From Planctomycetaceae bacterium (lineage in GTDB: Bacteria; Planctomycetota; Phycisphaerae; Sedimentisphaerales; UBA12454): a DNA stretch of 64,000 bases. The notes below the pieces were generated by a model, which saw only the letters and a list, made by a program, of their open reading frames with translations, did not search any database and had not been told where the DNA came from. The DNA is taken from contig JAJFVK010000007.1 in assembly GCA_021371795.1 (NCBI GenBank), forward strand, positions 1 to 64,000, read 5' to 3'. The position numbers were made by a program, and so were the translations under genes. Shown in pieces: positions 41,767-48,813 of the stretch; positions within the stretch are counted from its first letter, which is position 1; each line of letters begins with the position of its first letter.

Positions 41767-42028
41767 GCTTTAAAAAGCCGGTCTTTTTAACAGTTTTCGT
41801 CAACTAAATGCAACTAAATGAAAGTAAATCGCAGTGAAATAAAGTAAAATCGTTTGGAAACATAGTAAAATAAAGTGAAAAAGACAAAAGTTGTAAGGCA
41901 TAAGGCATAAGTATTCAGGGTCTGATTTGTTCTTAATTTATGCGTATATTATATTGTCCAGTTTGCAGACATTTTTTTTAATCACAGAGTTTCAAGGATT
42001 TATCGTTTTTTTTAATGAAAATGCGCAT

Positions 42029-42125
42029 AAAAAAAGGGAAAGCCGAAGCCTTCCCGCATTTTAGGGCATAAAGCCTTTATTATATGTGTTGACAATTCAA
42101 GCAATCTCAAATACACATATATTCT
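42029..42125 (-). ncRNA. tracrRNA of the type II-C CRISPR system
   Basis: The plus strand at 42088-42115 repeats the crRNA repeat sequence with one difference, so the minus transcript carries the complementary anti-repeat. The difference gives a G-U pair. Next, UAUAAU (42079-42084) can pair with the first six bases of the repeat, leaving an ACA bulge in the tracrRNA. A small AUAAA/UUUAU hairpin follows, then the hairpin GGGAAGGC-UUCG-GCUUUCCC (42036-42055) and seven U residues. This matches the known plan of tracrRNAs: anti-repeat, bulge, nexus and terminator stem. The 5' end is inferred from the promoter at 42132-42159. Confidence 0.88.
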
Positions 42126-42131
42126 ATAATG

Positions 42132-42159
42132 AGTATAGTTACGAATCGGAATTTGTCAA
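42132..42159 (-). promoter_or_regulatory. tracrRNA promoter
   Basis: On the minus strand TTGACA (42154-42159), 16 nt, TATACT (42132-42137). Start expected near 42125, just upstream of the anti-repeat. The promoter lies within the 60 bases before the cas9 ATG and is antisense to the cas9 leader. Confidence 0.75.
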
Positions 42160-42181
42160 ACTTTTTTTGGAGAGAGGAATT

Positions 42182-45100
42182 ATGAAGTACCGCTTGTCGT
42201 TAGATATGGGTGTGGGGTCCATAGGCGCTGCCGTTCTGAAATTAGATGAGGAAAACAGGGTTTCAGAAATAGTAGATAAAGGGGTTTGTATTTTTGAGGT
42301 ATCAGAAGGAGCAGAAGACCGAAGGCTCAAACGCTCGCAACGGAAAAATACTTACAGAACTAAAAAGAGAATCGATTTACTTTCCAAAGAACTTGCTCAA
42401 GCCGGGCTTTGGAGTTTAGATGAGGATGACCAGTTAGAACTGATCAAATTATCACCTTACGCAATACGTGCTCAAGGCGTAAACGGAAAACTAAATAACA
42501 TTATGGAAATTGGCAGGGCAATATTGCATATAGCCAAACATCGAGGCGCCGGTTTTGTTGAGATGAACAAATTGGAATTGGAGATAGAAAAAAATAACGA
42601 AGAAATCGAAGAAGATTCAGACAAGAAAAAGAAAAAAGAACTTTCCGAATATGCCAAACTAAAAAAACATCTGGAAGAAAGCAGAGCTAAAACCGTCGGC
42701 GAATATTTTTTTATGCGAATGCACAAAGGCTATAAAAATAATAATATCACTGATGAAAATAGGAGATATGTACGCCAGAGAAAAATGGATGACAAGGTCA
42801 AAGTGGATTATGCAATACCAAGATACCTTGTCAAAGAAGAATTTAATCTGTTATGGGAAACACAATTAAAATATTATAAGCAATTAAAAAATAATGGGCT
42901 TAAAGGTAAAATTTATGACATATTATTTTATGAAAACGATTCTCGCCCTTATGCAACAGGAAATTGTATTTTCATTGAAAATGAAAAACGGCTCGCCAAA
43001 GCACACCCATTAAGTGAAAAACGCAGAATTTATGAAGCCGTCAATAACATTAGAATACAAGAGCAAAAAGAACAGCGAAAACTTAGAAAAAACGAAAGAG
43101 ACAATATAATAAATGAATTACTTATGAAAGGTCAAAAGGCAGGCAAAAAATCCATCTCTGAATTATTGCCACTTGATAAAACTTTCAAAGTTGTATTGGA
43201 AGATATGATAAAGCCTTACTTGTATTCAATGCCGGAATACAAAGCGATTGATTTTCTAAATAATCTTGACGATGATAAATTAGCCGATGTTGTTGAGTTT
43301 ATGTCAGAGCCAAGAAGAGATGATAAAAAGGATTATCTGTACAATGATGAAAAAGTTATTGAAATACTAAAAAATAAATTCAGTACCGATGATGAGCAGC
43401 AAATATCTCAATTAATCGCAATGCTTCCGAAAGGCAGAGGTTCATTAGGCAATACAGCAACTCTTGAAATACTCAAACTACTTGAAAAAGACGTAATTTC
43501 CATTCGAGAGGCAACGGACAAACTTGCCCAAACTGATAAACGGTTTATATCTGAAGAGGAAATAGCACGCGCGATGCAGGGCAAATATGATACGCTGCCT
43601 TACTATGGCGAAATATTAAAAACAGATACCCAACCAATTGCAGACTGGCAAAAGCAAATAAATAAATCTCTCAATCAGCAGGAGAAAGATTTTGGCAAGA
43701 TTGCCAATCCAGCAGTGCACAGAATACTCAATCAACTTCGTAAGTTAGTTAATGACATAATAAGAATTTACGGCAAGCCCTATGATATAAATATCGAACT
43801 TGCAAGAGAAGTAGGAATGAGCAGCAAGAAAAAGAAAGAATATGAAACCCAACAGAAGAAAAATAAAGAGAAAAATGAAAAAGCTGTCGAATATCTTACG
43901 CATAAAGACATTCGGCTTAGAGTGACGAGTACGAATATATTGAAGTGGCGACTGGCGGAAGAACAAAACTGGAAAGATGCTTTTTCATTAGACCCGATTC
44001 ACTATAGGTTCGAGGGATTTGAAATCGAACATCTAATACCGGACAGCCTCGGCGGGACGGATGCGCCTATAAACAGGGTTTTAATCAAGAGAAGCGACAA
44101 TCTAAACAAGGGCAATATGTACCCTTATGAATATCTGCAAAATAAACACGGCGATAAAGTTTACGGAATCTTAAAAGAGATTCGAACCAACAAAAATATG
44201 CCTGCCGGTAAAAAATGGCGGTTTGAAAGCGATGCAAAGGAAATATTTGAAAAAGGCGAAGATACAGACAATATTACACGATATCTAACCGATACGAGAT
44301 ATGTTTGCAAATTAGCCGCTCGATATCTAAAAGCCATTGTTGATTACAAACAAGGCGATGAAAATAATACAAGAGTTTTAACAATCAACGGCGGGCATAC
44401 AGCAAAATTAAGAAGCATTTGGAATCTTGACGGAATTGAATATGATTTGATGGGACTGAATGAAGAGGTTCCTGAATATTTGCCGGATAAAACCCATTTT
44501 GTAAATCTTGATACCGGAGAAGTTTTATATCAAGAAGAACTCGATGTTGACGGTAATTGGAAAAAATGCAACGATATAAAAAATAAACATTGGAAGAAAA
44601 AACCAAGAATAGACTACAGACATCATATCATTGATGCAATTACCATTGGTTTTGTCAGCAGAGCCGATATGCAGAAAATCAACTGGTTCGATAAAAGAGG
44701 CTATGAAATTCCATTGATGCAGTTGCCAATTCCTTTAAGCAATGGGGACAATGAAAGCAAAGCTAAACAGCTTAAAATTTTCCGAAACACCGTCATTGAA
44801 AAACTCAAAGATACAAAAGTTTATCATAAACCGGAACGCAGTAAAAATGGACAGCTCCATAAAGAAACCGCACGAGCCGCATTTATGGATAATCCGGAAT
44901 GTCCCGAAGAAAAAATTACGAAATACAACAGGCCTGTTTCCGATGTTTTAAAAACAAAAGAAAATCTTAAAAACCTGTTAATAAATACAAATACCATCAA
45001 GCCTGAATGGGACAAAGATGTCGCAAGAGATGTTCAGGCAATGATAAAATTAAAGGCAGCAATAGAATCACATTTTGATGAAGCTCAATCACAGTTGGAA

Positions 45101-45715
45101 CAGGAAAATCAACAGCTTGTCCACGATGGGAAAAAAGAAAAGAAAATCAGTGAACCTATGATATTGCAGCGTGCGTTTAAAATAGTACGCAAAAATAAAG
45201 AATACAAATATGATATTTTCCCTGAATATGAAAACAAAAAATCGTTTGTCGATGTACCAAAACATAAAGTGGTATATGACAGCGGAAATAATTATTGTCT
45301 GGATTTTTATAAGGATGATAAAGGCAATGTTGGGTGGGAATGTATTACGCTATTTGGTGTTAATCGAAAAGATTTTATACCAGAATGGAAACAAAAAGAG
45401 TTTAAGCCAATTTGGTCTTTGCACAAAGGGGACATGATCGAACTGAACACACCAGCGGAATGGAAAAAATATTCAAATAAAAAAAGGTGTTTTGCCGTTG
45501 TTGATGCTTGCCATGCTAAGCTAGGAATAACTTACCATTTAGATGCACGAGATACGATAGGGAAAAAAGATTTACAAACATTACGTGATTCTATGATACG
45601 TAGATTGGGATTTTATACAGAACATGAGGCATGTAAAATAGAACTTACACCTTTTGGCAAAATAGCAAGAAAGCATAAGAAACTTTGGGATGGCAAGAAA
45701 AAAACGACTAAATAG
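42182..45715 (+). CDS. cas9: CRISPR-associated endonuclease Cas9, type II-C
   Basis: The 1177-residue RNA-guided nuclease cuts target DNA using crRNA and tracrRNA. RuvC-I has Asp8 (LSLDMGVGSIG). The Arg-rich bridge helix is near 45-62 (RRLKRSQRKNTYRTKK). RuvC-II has Glu539 (NIELAREV). The HNH domain carries His617 in FEIEHLIP, preceded by Glu616 where SpCas9 has Asp839, and later RSDNLNKGN. RuvC-III has HHIIDA (His814, His815, Asp818). All key residues are present or conservatively replaced, so it should be active. The ATG at 42182 has GGAGAGAGGAATT before it; a frame extending 32 codons upstream runs into the anti-repeat and was rejected. The gene is visibly more AT- and Lys-rich than its neighbours, suggesting transfer. 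It overlaps cas2. Confidence 0.95.
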   Translation: MKYRLSLDMGVGSIGAAVLKLDEENRVSEIVDKGVCIFEVSEGAEDRRLKRSQRKNTYRTKKRIDLLSKELAQAGLWSLDEDDQLELIKLSPYAIRAQGVNGKLNNIMEIGRAILHIAKHRGAGFVEMNKLELEIEKNNEEIEEDSDKKKKKELSEYAKLKKHLEESRAKTVGEYFFMRMHKGYKNNNITDENRRYVRQRKMDDKVKVDYAIPRYLVKEEFNLLWETQLKYYKQLKNNGLKGKIYDILFYENDSRPYATGNCIFIENEKRLAKAHPLSEKRRIYEAVNNIRIQEQKEQRKLRKNERDNIINELLMKGQKAGKKSISELLPLDKTFKVVLEDMIKPYLYSMPEYKAIDFLNNLDDDKLADVVEFMSEPRRDDKKDYLYNDEKVIEILKNKFSTDDEQQISQLIAMLPKGRGSLGNTATLEILKLLEKDVISIREATDKLAQTDKRFISEEEIARAMQGKYDTLPYYGEILKTDTQPIADWQKQINKSLNQQEKDFGKIANPAVHRILNQLRKLVNDIIRIYGKPYDINIELAREVGMSSKKKKEYETQQKKNKEKNEKAVEYLTHKDIRLRVTSTNILKWRLAEEQNWKDAFSLDPIHYRFEGFEIEHLIPDSLGGTDAPINRVLIKRSDNLNKGNMYPYEYLQNKHGDKVYGILKEIRTNKNMPAGKKWRFESDAKEIFEKGEDTDNITRYLTDTRYVCKLAARYLKAIVDYKQGDENNTRVLTINGGHTAKLRSIWNLDGIEYDLMGLNEEVPEYLPDKTHFVNLDTGEVLYQEELDVDGNWKKCNDIKNKHWKKKPRIDYRHHIIDAITIGFVSRADMQKINWFDKRGYEIPLMQLPIPLSNGDNESKAKQLKIFRNTVIEKLKDTKVYHKPERSKNGQLHKETARAAFMDNPECPEEKITKYNRPVSDVLKTKENLKNLLINTNTIKPEWDKDVARDVQAMIKLKAAIESHFDEAQSQLEQENQQLVHDGKKEKKISEPMILQRAFKIVRKNKEYKYDIFPEYENKKSFVDVPKHKVVYDSGNNYCLDFYKDDKGNVGWECITLFGVNRKDFIPEWKQKEFKPIWSLHKGDMIELNTPAEWKKYSNKKRCFAVVDACHAKLGITYHLDARDTIGKKDLQTLRDSMIRRLGFYTEHEACKIELTPFGKIARKHKKLWDGKKKTTK

Positions 45716-46052
45716 TTTAAGTGATTGGCATTTTATGTGGGTTTTTTGTATGTTCGATTTGCCTGTGAAAACAGAAAAGCAAATACGCCGTGCTACGGCC
45801 TTTCGGAATTTACTTTTGGATGAAGGCTTTGTAATGAAGCAGTTTTCCATCTATATAAAACCGACCGGCACATTTTCAACCGCCAGAGGACTCGTGAAGA
45901 AATTATCCTCGCTGATTCCAGATGGCGGCTTGGTATCGTTTATGTATGTTACTGACAGGCAATTCGCACTTGTTGAAAATTTCATTGGTGATATGCCAAC
46001 GACAAATGAAGAAATTATCAGACGCCAAAATGAACAACTGACACTGTTTTAG
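45690..46052 (+). CDS. cas2: CRISPR-associated protein Cas2
   Basis: The 120-residue adaptation protein has the ferredoxin-like start MWVFCMFDLPVKTEKQIRRAT, with the conserved Asp in FDLP, then FRNLLLDEGFVMKQFSIYIKP and a C-terminal RQNEQLTLF. Cas2 forms the scaffold of the Cas1-Cas2 integrase. The first ATG overlaps the end of cas9 by 26 bases; the next ATG is at 45735 (MWVF). The upstream one is favoured because related type II-C Cas2 proteins carry an RLxxYR-like extension before MW. Its end overlaps the convergent cas1 by 4 bases. Confidence 0.9.
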   Translation: MARKKRLNSLSDWHFMWVFCMFDLPVKTEKQIRRATAFRNLLLDEGFVMKQFSIYIKPTGTFSTARGLVKKLSSLIPDGGLVSFMYVTDRQFALVENFIGDMPTTNEEIIRRQNEQLTLF

Positions 46053-46957
46053 TTTAAATAATTCATTGTGGGAAGATAAAGGGATTTTTCTGTCTCGGCG
46101 TAAACCCTGCTCAAAGAGGATGCGATTTTGTGCATAACCTGATTGGGCGTGGTTGTTATTTCGTCAGTTTTGATTGATTTATCGAGCAAACTTACAAGCC
46201 TTGTTTTGTTTTCTGTATCCAATTCGAAAAGGCCGTCTTTGAAAAATATTTCGTAAACTTCCATATCGACCAAAGGTCTGAATGGCTCCATCAAATCGTC
46301 CACCAAAGGCATAGAATTATTGGGATTGCAGTGTTTTATGCCGATGCTCGGATTCAGACCATAAGACACAACCGCTCTGGCCGCTGTGCTTCGCAGGATG
46401 GTATAGCCATAATTTAATAATGTGTTTATGCCCGGCTGCTCTCTGTCTCTGATAAAATCCCGGCCGAAAATTTCGGCAAAATAATGCTTCGCCGCCTGAC
46501 CTTCACAATTTGTACTATCATCCGATTTTACTTCGCCGGCAAGATTCAAAAGATATTCATGTTTTTTATTTAATATTTTTAAGGCCATTGCCTGCTGTGT
46601 GATTTTAGCGATTATAATGGATTTCCAAAGTTGCTTGTTAAGAGGCTTTTTTGTTTGTGCTTGAAACATCATACGCCTGCTCTGGTGAAAATAACCGTCA
46701 AATGGCAGGACAATACTTTTAGGCAGATGTTTATTGTCGCAGAATATTACAGGAATATTTCTTTGAGCAAACTCGAGCATAACATTATGAGTATAACAAA
46801 GGTCGTATGCGTTAAAAATTACTGCCTGAATATCATCAAAAGCAACAGAGCCGATTTTTTTATCTTTCTCATAAACTCCAAGTGAACCTCTGTCTTTTTT
46901 AAGAAATCGATTTAAACCTGAAATCTCAATTATTCTGCCGCAATGGTAGGTGTTCAT
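46049..46957 (-). CDS. cas1: CRISPR-associated integrase Cas1 (type II)
   Basis: This 302-residue protein inserts new spacers with Cas2. The metal-binding residues of the family are visible: Glu152 (NCEGQAA), His209 (GIKHC) and Glu224 (LVDDLMEPFRPLVD). The N-terminus HCGRIIEISGLNRFL and the length match type II Cas1. It is on the strand opposite cas9-cas2 and converges on cas2, although cas9-cas1-cas2 in one direction is the normal II-C order. Its direction is the same as the crRNAs and tracrRNA. No cas4 or csn2 is present, which supports subtype II-C. Confidence 0.93.
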   Translation of the reverse strand: MNTYHCGRIIEISGLNRFLKKDRGSLGVYEKDKKIGSVAFDDIQAVIFNAYDLCYTHNVMLEFAQRNIPVIFCDNKHLPKSIVLPFDGYFHQSRRMMFQAQTKKPLNKQLWKSIIIAKITQQAMALKILNKKHEYLLNLAGEVKSDDSTNCEGQAAKHYFAEIFGRDFIRDREQPGINTLLNYGYTILRSTAARAVVSYGLNPSIGIKHCNPNNSMPLVDDLMEPFRPLVDMEVYEIFFKDGLFELDTENKTRLVSLLDKSIKTDEITTTPNQVMHKIASSLSRVYAETEKSLYLPTMNYLN

Positions 46958-47027: not shown

Positions 47028-47066
47028 AAAAAGAGCGCAAACCCTTTCCCCACAAAGACTTTGCGC
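47028..47066 (-). terminator. Terminator of the CRISPR array transcript
   Basis: On the minus strand GCGCAAA (47060-47066) pairs with TTTGCGC (47035-47041), with an inner CUUU/AAAG pairing in the loop, followed by UCUUUUU. It lies 6 bases beyond the leftmost repeat, so leftward transcripts of the array would end here, before cas1. Confidence 0.75.
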
Positions 47067-47072
47067 AGTGAT

Positions 47073-48229
47073 ATTGTATTTGAGATTGCTTGAACTGTCA
47101 ACTATAACTCTGGATGGAAAATCTCAAGGCGTATTTATATTGTATTTGAGATTGCTTGAACTGTCAACTATAACGGATGGGGGCAGTTGCTCCGCCTAAA
47201 ACAGATTGTATTTGAGATTGCTTGAACTGTCAACTATAACACGGCAGACGGGCGCATTTCGCTTCCGGCGATTGTATTTGAGATTGCTTGAACTGTCAAC
47301 TATAACTAAGTGCATCCACCAATATCAACGTTAATATTGTATTTGAGATTGCTTGAACTGTCAACTATAACTAGCTTGCTTAGCTAACTCTTTTAATCGC
47401 TATTGTATTTGAGATTGCTTGAACTGTCAACTATAACAAGCTTCCGCCGCAGATGTTACCTCTATAAATTGTATTTGAGATTGCTTGAACTGTCAACTAT
47501 AACCATTTGTTCTTCTGTATCGCCAAAAGCTGTATTGTATTTGAGATTGCTTGAACTGTCAACTATAACTAAGTGCATCCATACCATTCACCAATATCAA
47601 TTGTATTTGAGATTGCTTGAACTGTCAACTATAACTAGTTGGTGGTTGTGAAACGTCTGCAAGCGATTGTATTTGAGATTGCTTGAACTGTCAACTATAA
47701 CAACGGTGGGCAATCAACATGGCCGGTCATAATTGTATTTGAGATTGCTTGAACTGTCAACTATAACGTCGCAAGACACTAATTCATTTCCTTGCACATT
47801 GTATTTGAGATTGCTTGAACTGTCAACTATAACTACCGTTCAAGATAAAAAGCGTGCCTGATTATTGTATTTGAGATTGCTTGAACTGTCAACTATAACC
47901 ATAAAAATGGGGTAATCACAGTAAACTTGATTGTATTTGAGATTGCTTGAACTGTCAACTATAACCAACCGTCGATCAGACATATAAAGATGCTTATTGT
48001 ATTTGAGATTGCTTGAACTGTCAACTATAACTACAATCATGATACTTTTCTATGATTGCAGATTGTATTTGAGATTGCTTGAACTGTCAACTATAACTAA
48101 ACGCGACATCTGGTTTTGTGGGTGCCAATTGTATTTGAGATTGCTTGAACTGTCAACTATAACGTTCGCGGCGAAGGGACGGAGATTGGCGGCATTGTAT
48201 TTGAGATTGCTTGAACTGTCAACTATAAC
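47073..48229 (-). CRISPR. CRISPR array: 18 repeats, 17 spacers, type II-C, read leftward
   Basis: There are eighteen 36-nt repeats with no difference seen between copies, at a 66-nt period, and 17 spacers of 30 nt (the fourth from the left is 29). In crRNA sense (minus strand) the repeat begins GTTATAGTTGACAG and ends CTCAAATACAAT. This matches the GTTGTAG...ACAAT frame of type II-C repeats and is complementary to the anti-repeat at 42088-42115. Positions 8-13 (TTGACA) and 31-36 (TACAAT) are 17 nt apart, so each repeat contains a complete promoter firing into the next spacer. No degenerate repeat marks the old end. First repeat 47073-47108, last 48194-48229. Confidence 0.97.
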
Positions 48230-48325
48230 TAACTTTTTGGTTATGACGGGGGGGGGATTATGAACAGTCATTCAGCAGTAAAAATCCGCGTTCCGCCGCT
48301 GCGGAATCCGTGTCTGAAAAAACGT

Positions 48326-48352
48326 CTCTGTGCAACTCTGTGTCGCTCTGTG
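48326..48352. repeat. Three CTCTGTG units with 10-bp period beside the array
   Basis: CTCTGTG occurs at 48326, 48336 and 48346, exactly one helical turn apart. The gap 48230-48556 also contains a run of nine G (48248-48256) 18 bases from the last repeat. Its other recognisable feature is the promoter at 48416. It may include the adaptation leader, but this cannot be shown. Confidence 0.5.
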
Positions 48353-48415
48353 GCGAGAAAAAAGGGGTATTTTCGGACATTAGGTTAAATATTGGATAAA
48401 AAAATATAATAATTA

Positions 48416-48443
48416 TTGACAGATTAACGAATTGTGGTATAAT
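48416..48443 (+). promoter_or_regulatory. Promoter of the cold-shock gene
   Basis: TTGACA (48416-48421), 16 nt, TATAAT (48438-48443). With a start near 48450 the mRNA has a 5' leader of about 107 nt, a common feature of cold-shock mRNAs, whose leaders can act as RNA thermosensors. Confidence 0.8.
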
Positions 48444-48556
48444 GCCTGCGTTATGGTGTGTATTCTTTCATCTCTCAAGTCTATACCCCGATTCAAATAT
48501 AACAAACGAGGGATATTATGTTTTATGGCCTTTAAATAAGGTCAAGGAGTATTAAA

Positions 48557-48760
48557 ATGAGTACAGGTACAGTAAAATGGTTCAATTCAGAAAAAGGTTA
48601 TGGTTTTATCACACCTGACGATGGCAGCAATGATTTGTTTGTCCATCATTCAGAAGTCAAAACGAACGGTTATGCCAATCTTAATGAAAACCAGAAGGTA
48701 AATTTCGAAGTAGGACAAGGCAAAAAAGGCCCATGTGCTACTAACGTAACAACCCTTTAG
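48557..48760 (+). CDS. Cold-shock protein (CspA family)
   Basis: The 67-residue single OB-fold protein has both RNA-binding motifs, KGYGFIT (RNP1) and DLFVHHS (RNP2), and the usual start [16 protein letters not shown]. It binds single-stranded RNA and DNA and melts secondary structure. CAAGGAG lies 11 bases before the ATG. Its own promoter, long leader and terminator make it a single-gene unit. Confidence 0.95.
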
Positions 48761-48787
48761 TCCCCAATAAGCCTGAATTAGACTTGA

Positions 48788-48813
48788 AGGCTCGCTTTTG
48801 CGGGCCTTTTTTT
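48788..48813 (+). terminator. Terminator of the cold-shock gene
   Basis: AGGCTCGC pairs with GCGGGCCT (one G-U) around TTTT and is followed by seven T residues. Confidence 0.9.

Follow-up and report, generated by a model that had tools for sequence, protein, structure and literature searches.

The features of a CRISPR-Cas9 locus in a planctomycete genome (Sedimentisphaerales, a name also borne by one genome of the same order) suggest a type II-C-like system in which every repeat of the array is a sigma-70-type promoter firing into the following spacer, a reading to which we assign a probability of about 0.85. The locus lies in a stretch of 64,000 nucleotides (contig JAJFVK010000007.1, positions 1 to 64,000), hereafter the window, and its CRISPR array, at positions 47073-48229 on the minus strand, consists of 18 identical 36-nt repeats and 17 spacers. 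A first-pass annotation had described each repeat, read on the minus strand, as TTGACA at repeat positions 8-13, 17 nt, and TACAAT at positions 31-36. A promoter scan confirms this in 18 of 18 copies, from 48222-48194 (-35 at 48222-48217, -10 at 48199-48194) down to 47101-47073, with 11 of the 12 consensus letters in each copy.

The CRISPR-Cas9 locus

The cas genes at the locus are cas9 (1179 aa, 42176-45715, plus strand; TIGR01865 at 464 bits, PF18541, PF18470 and PF13395), cas2 (45690-46052, plus strand; PF09827 and TIGR01573) and a type II cas1 of the cas1_NMENI family (46049-46957, minus strand; TIGR03639 at 255 bits), the last on the same strand as the array. Neither csn2 nor cas4 was seen at the locus, which is flanked by a cold-shock gene and by housekeeping genes. 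The family assignment of Cas9 by NCBIfam is at the level of type II only; in gene content and layout the locus has the features of type II-C: cas9, cas1 and cas2 alone, a tracrRNA with an anti-repeat near cas9, and an array that lies downstream of the cas genes and is transcribed towards them, with cas1 inverted relative to the usual order of cas9, cas1 and cas2. The arrangement in which cas9 and cas2 face cas1 and then the array is found in the window, in a sister genome and in two Desulfovibrio loci (L084 and L086, array detected), while in alphaproteobacteria cas9 and cas2 face the array and then cas1; both layouts are unusual compared with three co-directional genes in the order cas9, cas1, cas2.

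The predicted tracrRNA gene (42026-42125, minus strand; anti-repeat 42115-42080, terminator hairpin 42055-42036) lies upstream of cas9 and is divergent from it; an Rfam search of the locus gave no relevant match, to a tracrRNA or to any other RNA. The duplex of repeat and tracrRNA in the window can span repeat positions 1-34 with a 3-nt bulge. The promoter scan predicts a tracrRNA promoter, TTGACA-N16-TATACT, at 42132-42159 on the minus strand, whose -35 is under no pairing constraint, and in a genome of the same genus a TTGACA-N17-TATAAT promoter was read by eye at the equivalent place. On the plus strand the anti-repeat (42080-42116), which lies about 60 bp ahead of the start of cas9, reads TTGACA-N17-TACACA and might be a weak cas9 promoter.

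The repeat, GTTATAGTTGACAGTTCAAGCAATCTCAAATACAAT, occurs as 18 exact copies on the minus strand running from 48229 to 47073, separated by spacers of 30 nt, with one of 29 nt. The crRNA sense was assigned to the minus strand because of the tracrRNA anti-repeat and the TAnnnT at the 3' end that is typical of II-C repeats, such that the oldest (first) repeat is 48229-48194 and the last 47108-47073. Planctomycetes bacterium GWF2_41_51, of the same genus, has an identical repeat and different spacers. Two spacers (47570-47599 and 47307-47335) share TTGATATTGGTG...GGATGCACTTAG apart from a gap several bases long, which could mean capture from variants of one target; a scan of viral contigs for this common motif, for the repeat GTTATAGTTGACAGTTCAAGCAATCTCAAATACAAT and for the core of the relatives' repeats gave no match.

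Beyond the last repeat (47028-47072, minus strand) lies a hairpin at 47066-47035, 6 nt past the repeat and followed by TCTTTTT, with a folding energy of -16.7 kcal/mol (z -2.2). It is nearly identical in the same-genus genome, and hairpins are found likewise in most other loci. This hairpin and its U-tract probably form the end of all array transcripts, and the region is probably also the leader, where spacers are added, because II-C arrays are known from the literature to grow at the last repeat.

A promoter-like motif in each repeat

Matches of this quality are rare by chance, as at least 11 of 12 letters were reached in 0.03% of dinucleotide shuffles of the repeat (20,000 trials, one strand, spacing 16-18) and 11 of 12 in 0.05% of random 36-mers of the window. 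Because repeats duplicate from each other, the 18 copies represent one improbable sequence and not 18 independent events. Sites with 12 of 12 letters number only two between 41300 and 48500. Among the best sigma-70-like sites in the window are those of the cold-shock gene (48416, plus strand), the tracrRNA gene (42159, minus strand) and the strand towards nusA (41569, minus strand), and all three have the same hexamers as the repeat. The cold-shock gene itself (48418-48794, plus strand, start at 48557) has a long 5' leader with a weak match, below the gathering score, to the cspA thermoregulator.

If the repeat promoter is functional, as is most likely, RNA polymerase would bind at TTGACA (8-13) and TACAAT (31-36), and transcription would start about 6-9 nt into the spacer, or 5-9 nt by the precedent of Campylobacter jejuni and of Neisseria meningitidis as cited. 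With a -10 that ends at the last repeat base, guides would be about 22-25 nt long, and the 23-24 nt of the first-pass annotation is plausible. The crRNAs would have 5' ends that require no processing, trimming by RNase III would be limited to the 3' side, within the duplex of repeat and tracrRNA, and run-on transcripts would stop at the hairpin and U-tract past the last repeat. We infer promoter activity, start position, guide length and processing alike from the sequence. Because the start of cas1 is on the array strand, 116 nt beyond the last repeat, and the sites listed include no further promoter-like one of at least 9/12 in between, read-through from the array may supply cas1.

Repeats of related systems

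A scan of 84,980 genomes yielded 80 Cas9 loci; together with the window, 57 loci had usable repeats. A subclade of Cas9 proteins at about 42-50% identity is found in Planctomycetes, gut Alphaproteobacteria, Rickettsiales and Candidatus Gastranaerophilales, and in all 23 of its array-bearing loci (17 distinct repeats) positions 8-12 read TTGAC and positions 31-32 TA, with a spacing of exactly 17 nt. T36 is present in 14 of the 17 distinct repeats and positions 33-35 vary; a fixed TA and a mostly kept T36 around variable letters is the pattern of a -10 box. In 25/25 loci scored, the top sigma-70-like site of the sense strand occupies the same place in the repeat, again with a spacing of 17 nt. 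One Gastranaerophilales locus (L070) has a repeat with both hexamers perfect, TTGACA-N17-TATAAT, and a TG ahead of the -10. The other members of the subclade carry this TG, whereas the window repeat has AAA at 28-30 and thus lacks the TG one base before the -10 that defines the extended -10 of the N. meningitidis and C. jejuni type. The N. meningitidis repeat ends in TACAAT, identical to the window repeat; it is of the extended -10 type and is not known to have TTGAC at 8-12. Among the 34 more distant loci (33 distinct repeats), T31 and A32 are found in 31/33 repeats and T36 in 30/33, and TTG at 8-10 in only 10/34 loci. The comparison indicates that the -10 is a general feature of II-C repeats, in agreement with published work, and that the full -35 marks this Cas9 subclade; it is not a peculiarity of the window genome. 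A TTG within the repeat was proposed earlier for Flavobacterium columnare.

A search for further arrays in the order of an alphaproteobacterial relative matched 15 of 153 genomes, mostly at loci already surveyed. One Sedimentisphaerales locus with a Cas9 that is 70% identical (L003) was left out of the repeat comparison, as its contig carries no array; at positions 300-335 the anti-repeat of its tracrRNA is missing precisely the -35 letters TTGA (GTGCAGTTCAAGC vs GTGTTGACAATTCAAGC).

Promoter function and tracrRNA pairing

The first-pass annotation had proposed that the repeat is doubly constrained, by promoter function and by tracrRNA pairing. This holds mainly for the -35, which sits within the stem of guide and tracrRNA, where position 13 covaries with the anti-repeat, so that its conservation may stem from either; positions 1-6, moreover, are as conserved as the -35, which counts against the repeat promoter. 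The -10 lies outside this stem in the relatives, although pairing in the window reaches position 34: in the alphaproteobacterial loci anti-repeat and repeat agree up to about position 30 and diverge beyond it, and pairing with the tracrRNA therefore does not explain the conservation of TAnnnT.

The first repeat of an array provides a natural test, because no needed guide tag follows it. In 46 first repeats the changes concentrate in positions 1-7 and seldom fall in 17-36, and last repeats are intact save in 1-2 loci. The worn first repeats of the subclade have 61/98 letters changed in positions 1-7, 11/56 in 8-11, and 1/42 at T31, A32 and T36. Feussner et al. 2025 (PMC12080349) described worn 'extra' II-C repeats, with the first repeat mutated within its first 15 nt, and discussed retention of the promoter; they read the wear as lost tracrRNA pairing, whereas here it affects positions 1-7 and stops where the -35 begins, and in many alphaproteobacterial loci the worn part overlies the cas1 end. 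Nine loci of alphaproteobacterial type (L058, L060, L061, L064, L067, L068, L070, L074 and L081) have the cas1 stop codon within the first repeat, so that this repeat is also a gene end and the test of 5' wear is confounded for the -35; in three of them the stop is at repeat positions 9-11 and is the TGA of TTGAC itself. In the eight worn first repeats that are non-coding, positions 8-11 are changed in 2/32 letters as against 9/40 for positions 12-16 (p = 0.055); with all cases included TTGA does not differ from 12-16. Nor is the step at position 7 proof of a -35, because in the distant loci the worn part likewise ends near position 7. As a test of the -35 alone, the worn repeats are confounded by the cas1 stop codons, and with those loci left out the effect is only suggestive. 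Taken over the whole repeat, the wear offers good evidence for a promoter and suggestive evidence for the -35.

Alternative explanations

It is possible, although we lean against it, that the repeat promoter consists of a -10 only, and that TTGAC is kept by the stem of guide and tracrRNA and by Cas9 contacts and resembles a -35 by chance. Positions 1-12 are indeed conserved as a block, position 13 covaries with the anti-repeat, most other II-C repeats surveyed have TAnnnT without TTGAC and often with TG before it, and the C. jejuni promoters have no clear -35. However, this explanation does not sit easily with a spacing of exactly 17 nt in all loci, with a window repeat that is without the TG of an extended -10 and yet has a perfect TTGACA, with the occurrence of TTGACA in the other best promoters of the host, or with the tendency of TTGA to persist in worn non-coding first repeats.

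Two further readings would do away with sense promoters in the repeats or set a second promoter against them. We think it quite unlikely that the hexamers are coincidental and that a promoter outside the array drives a single long precursor, which RNase III then cuts on both sides; a pre-crRNA-tracrRNA duplex over positions 1-34 would suit RNase III, and a leader promoter has been argued for the II-C system of Riemerella anatipestifer, but the promoter scan found nothing promoter-like on the strand of the array from 48230 to 48500, the chance of the repeat site is 0.0003, and TAnnnT is conserved outside the paired part in the relatives. Slighter still is the case for a two-way promoter that also sends antisense RNA across the array. 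The opposite strand of the repeat does have TTGAGA-N17-TATAAC, 10/12 with the same geometry, which must itself be counted against a dedicated sense promoter; nevertheless, its -10 is without the important final T, the TATAAC is dictated by the GTTATA tag, and the antisense -35 is absent from relatives. In a simple weight matrix built on consensus fractions the sense strand of the window repeat scores 14.3 and the opposite strand 10.9, and the sense strand scores higher in 24/25 loci.

Discussion

The reading of each repeat as a sense promoter is strengthened by II-C systems in which it has been established by experiment. In C. jejuni NCTC 11168 (Dugar et al. 2013, PMC3656092), dRNA-seq and 5'-RACE identified a promoter in each repeat, with starts inside the spacer at position 5 and with tracrRNA and RNase III trimming the 3' side only. 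The C. jejuni and window repeats are alike in having a -10 box at the 3' end and differ in that the former has an extended -10 (GGTAAAAT) and no clear -35, and the latter a perfect TTGACA and no TG. That repeat-embedded promoters are established in N. meningitidis, as the first-pass annotation had it, is borne out by the passages of PMC5006608 and PMC7038990 that cite Zhang et al. 2013, which report a functional promoter in each repeat and 5' processing as dispensable. Its proposal that every repeat is a promoter, with a start a few nucleotides into the next spacer, is well supported by comparison and matches these established systems, and transcription of the array itself is predicted from the motif.

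Repeat-embedded promoters and the -10 box of II-C repeats are known already, and a TTG in the repeat has been proposed for F. columnare. In the passages of Pearson et al. 2015 (PMC4607530) on the repeats of 132 genomes with type II systems, II-C repeats, and not those of II-A, end in a predicted -10, gnTAnaaT; the -10 alone is described there, and the window repeat adds a -35. Hoikkala et al. 2021 (PMC8092290) proposed for the F. columnare II-C array that a TTG, some 33 bp ahead of every spacer, is an in-repeat promoter element; there it is a TTG only, of a Flavobacterium-type promoter and with few reads, in contrast to the full TTGACA-N17-TACAAT of the window. What is new, on sequence comparison, is the occurrence of TTGAC, 17 nt and TA throughout a Cas9 subclade of Planctomycetes, gut Alphaproteobacteria and Gastranaerophilales, and a full-text literature search that covered few subscription papers turned up no description of a repeat containing a complete -35/-10 promoter.

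A broader scenario, which we offer tentatively and consider rather unlikely, is that this subclade, spanning at least three phyla, made its repeat a full -35/-10 promoter, such that polymerase, tracrRNA and Cas9 would jointly fix the repeat, and that the array promoters would feed cas1 by leaky termination and so tie acquisition to array transcription. Should each repeat fire on its own, an identical promoter would precede every spacer irrespective of its position in the array, and newly acquired spacers would need no leader promoter for their expression. A full consensus promoter within 36 nt, functional across unrelated hosts, would help to explain the spread of the subclade across phyla, and the repeat provides a clean test case for whether promoter needs shape CRISPR repeats.
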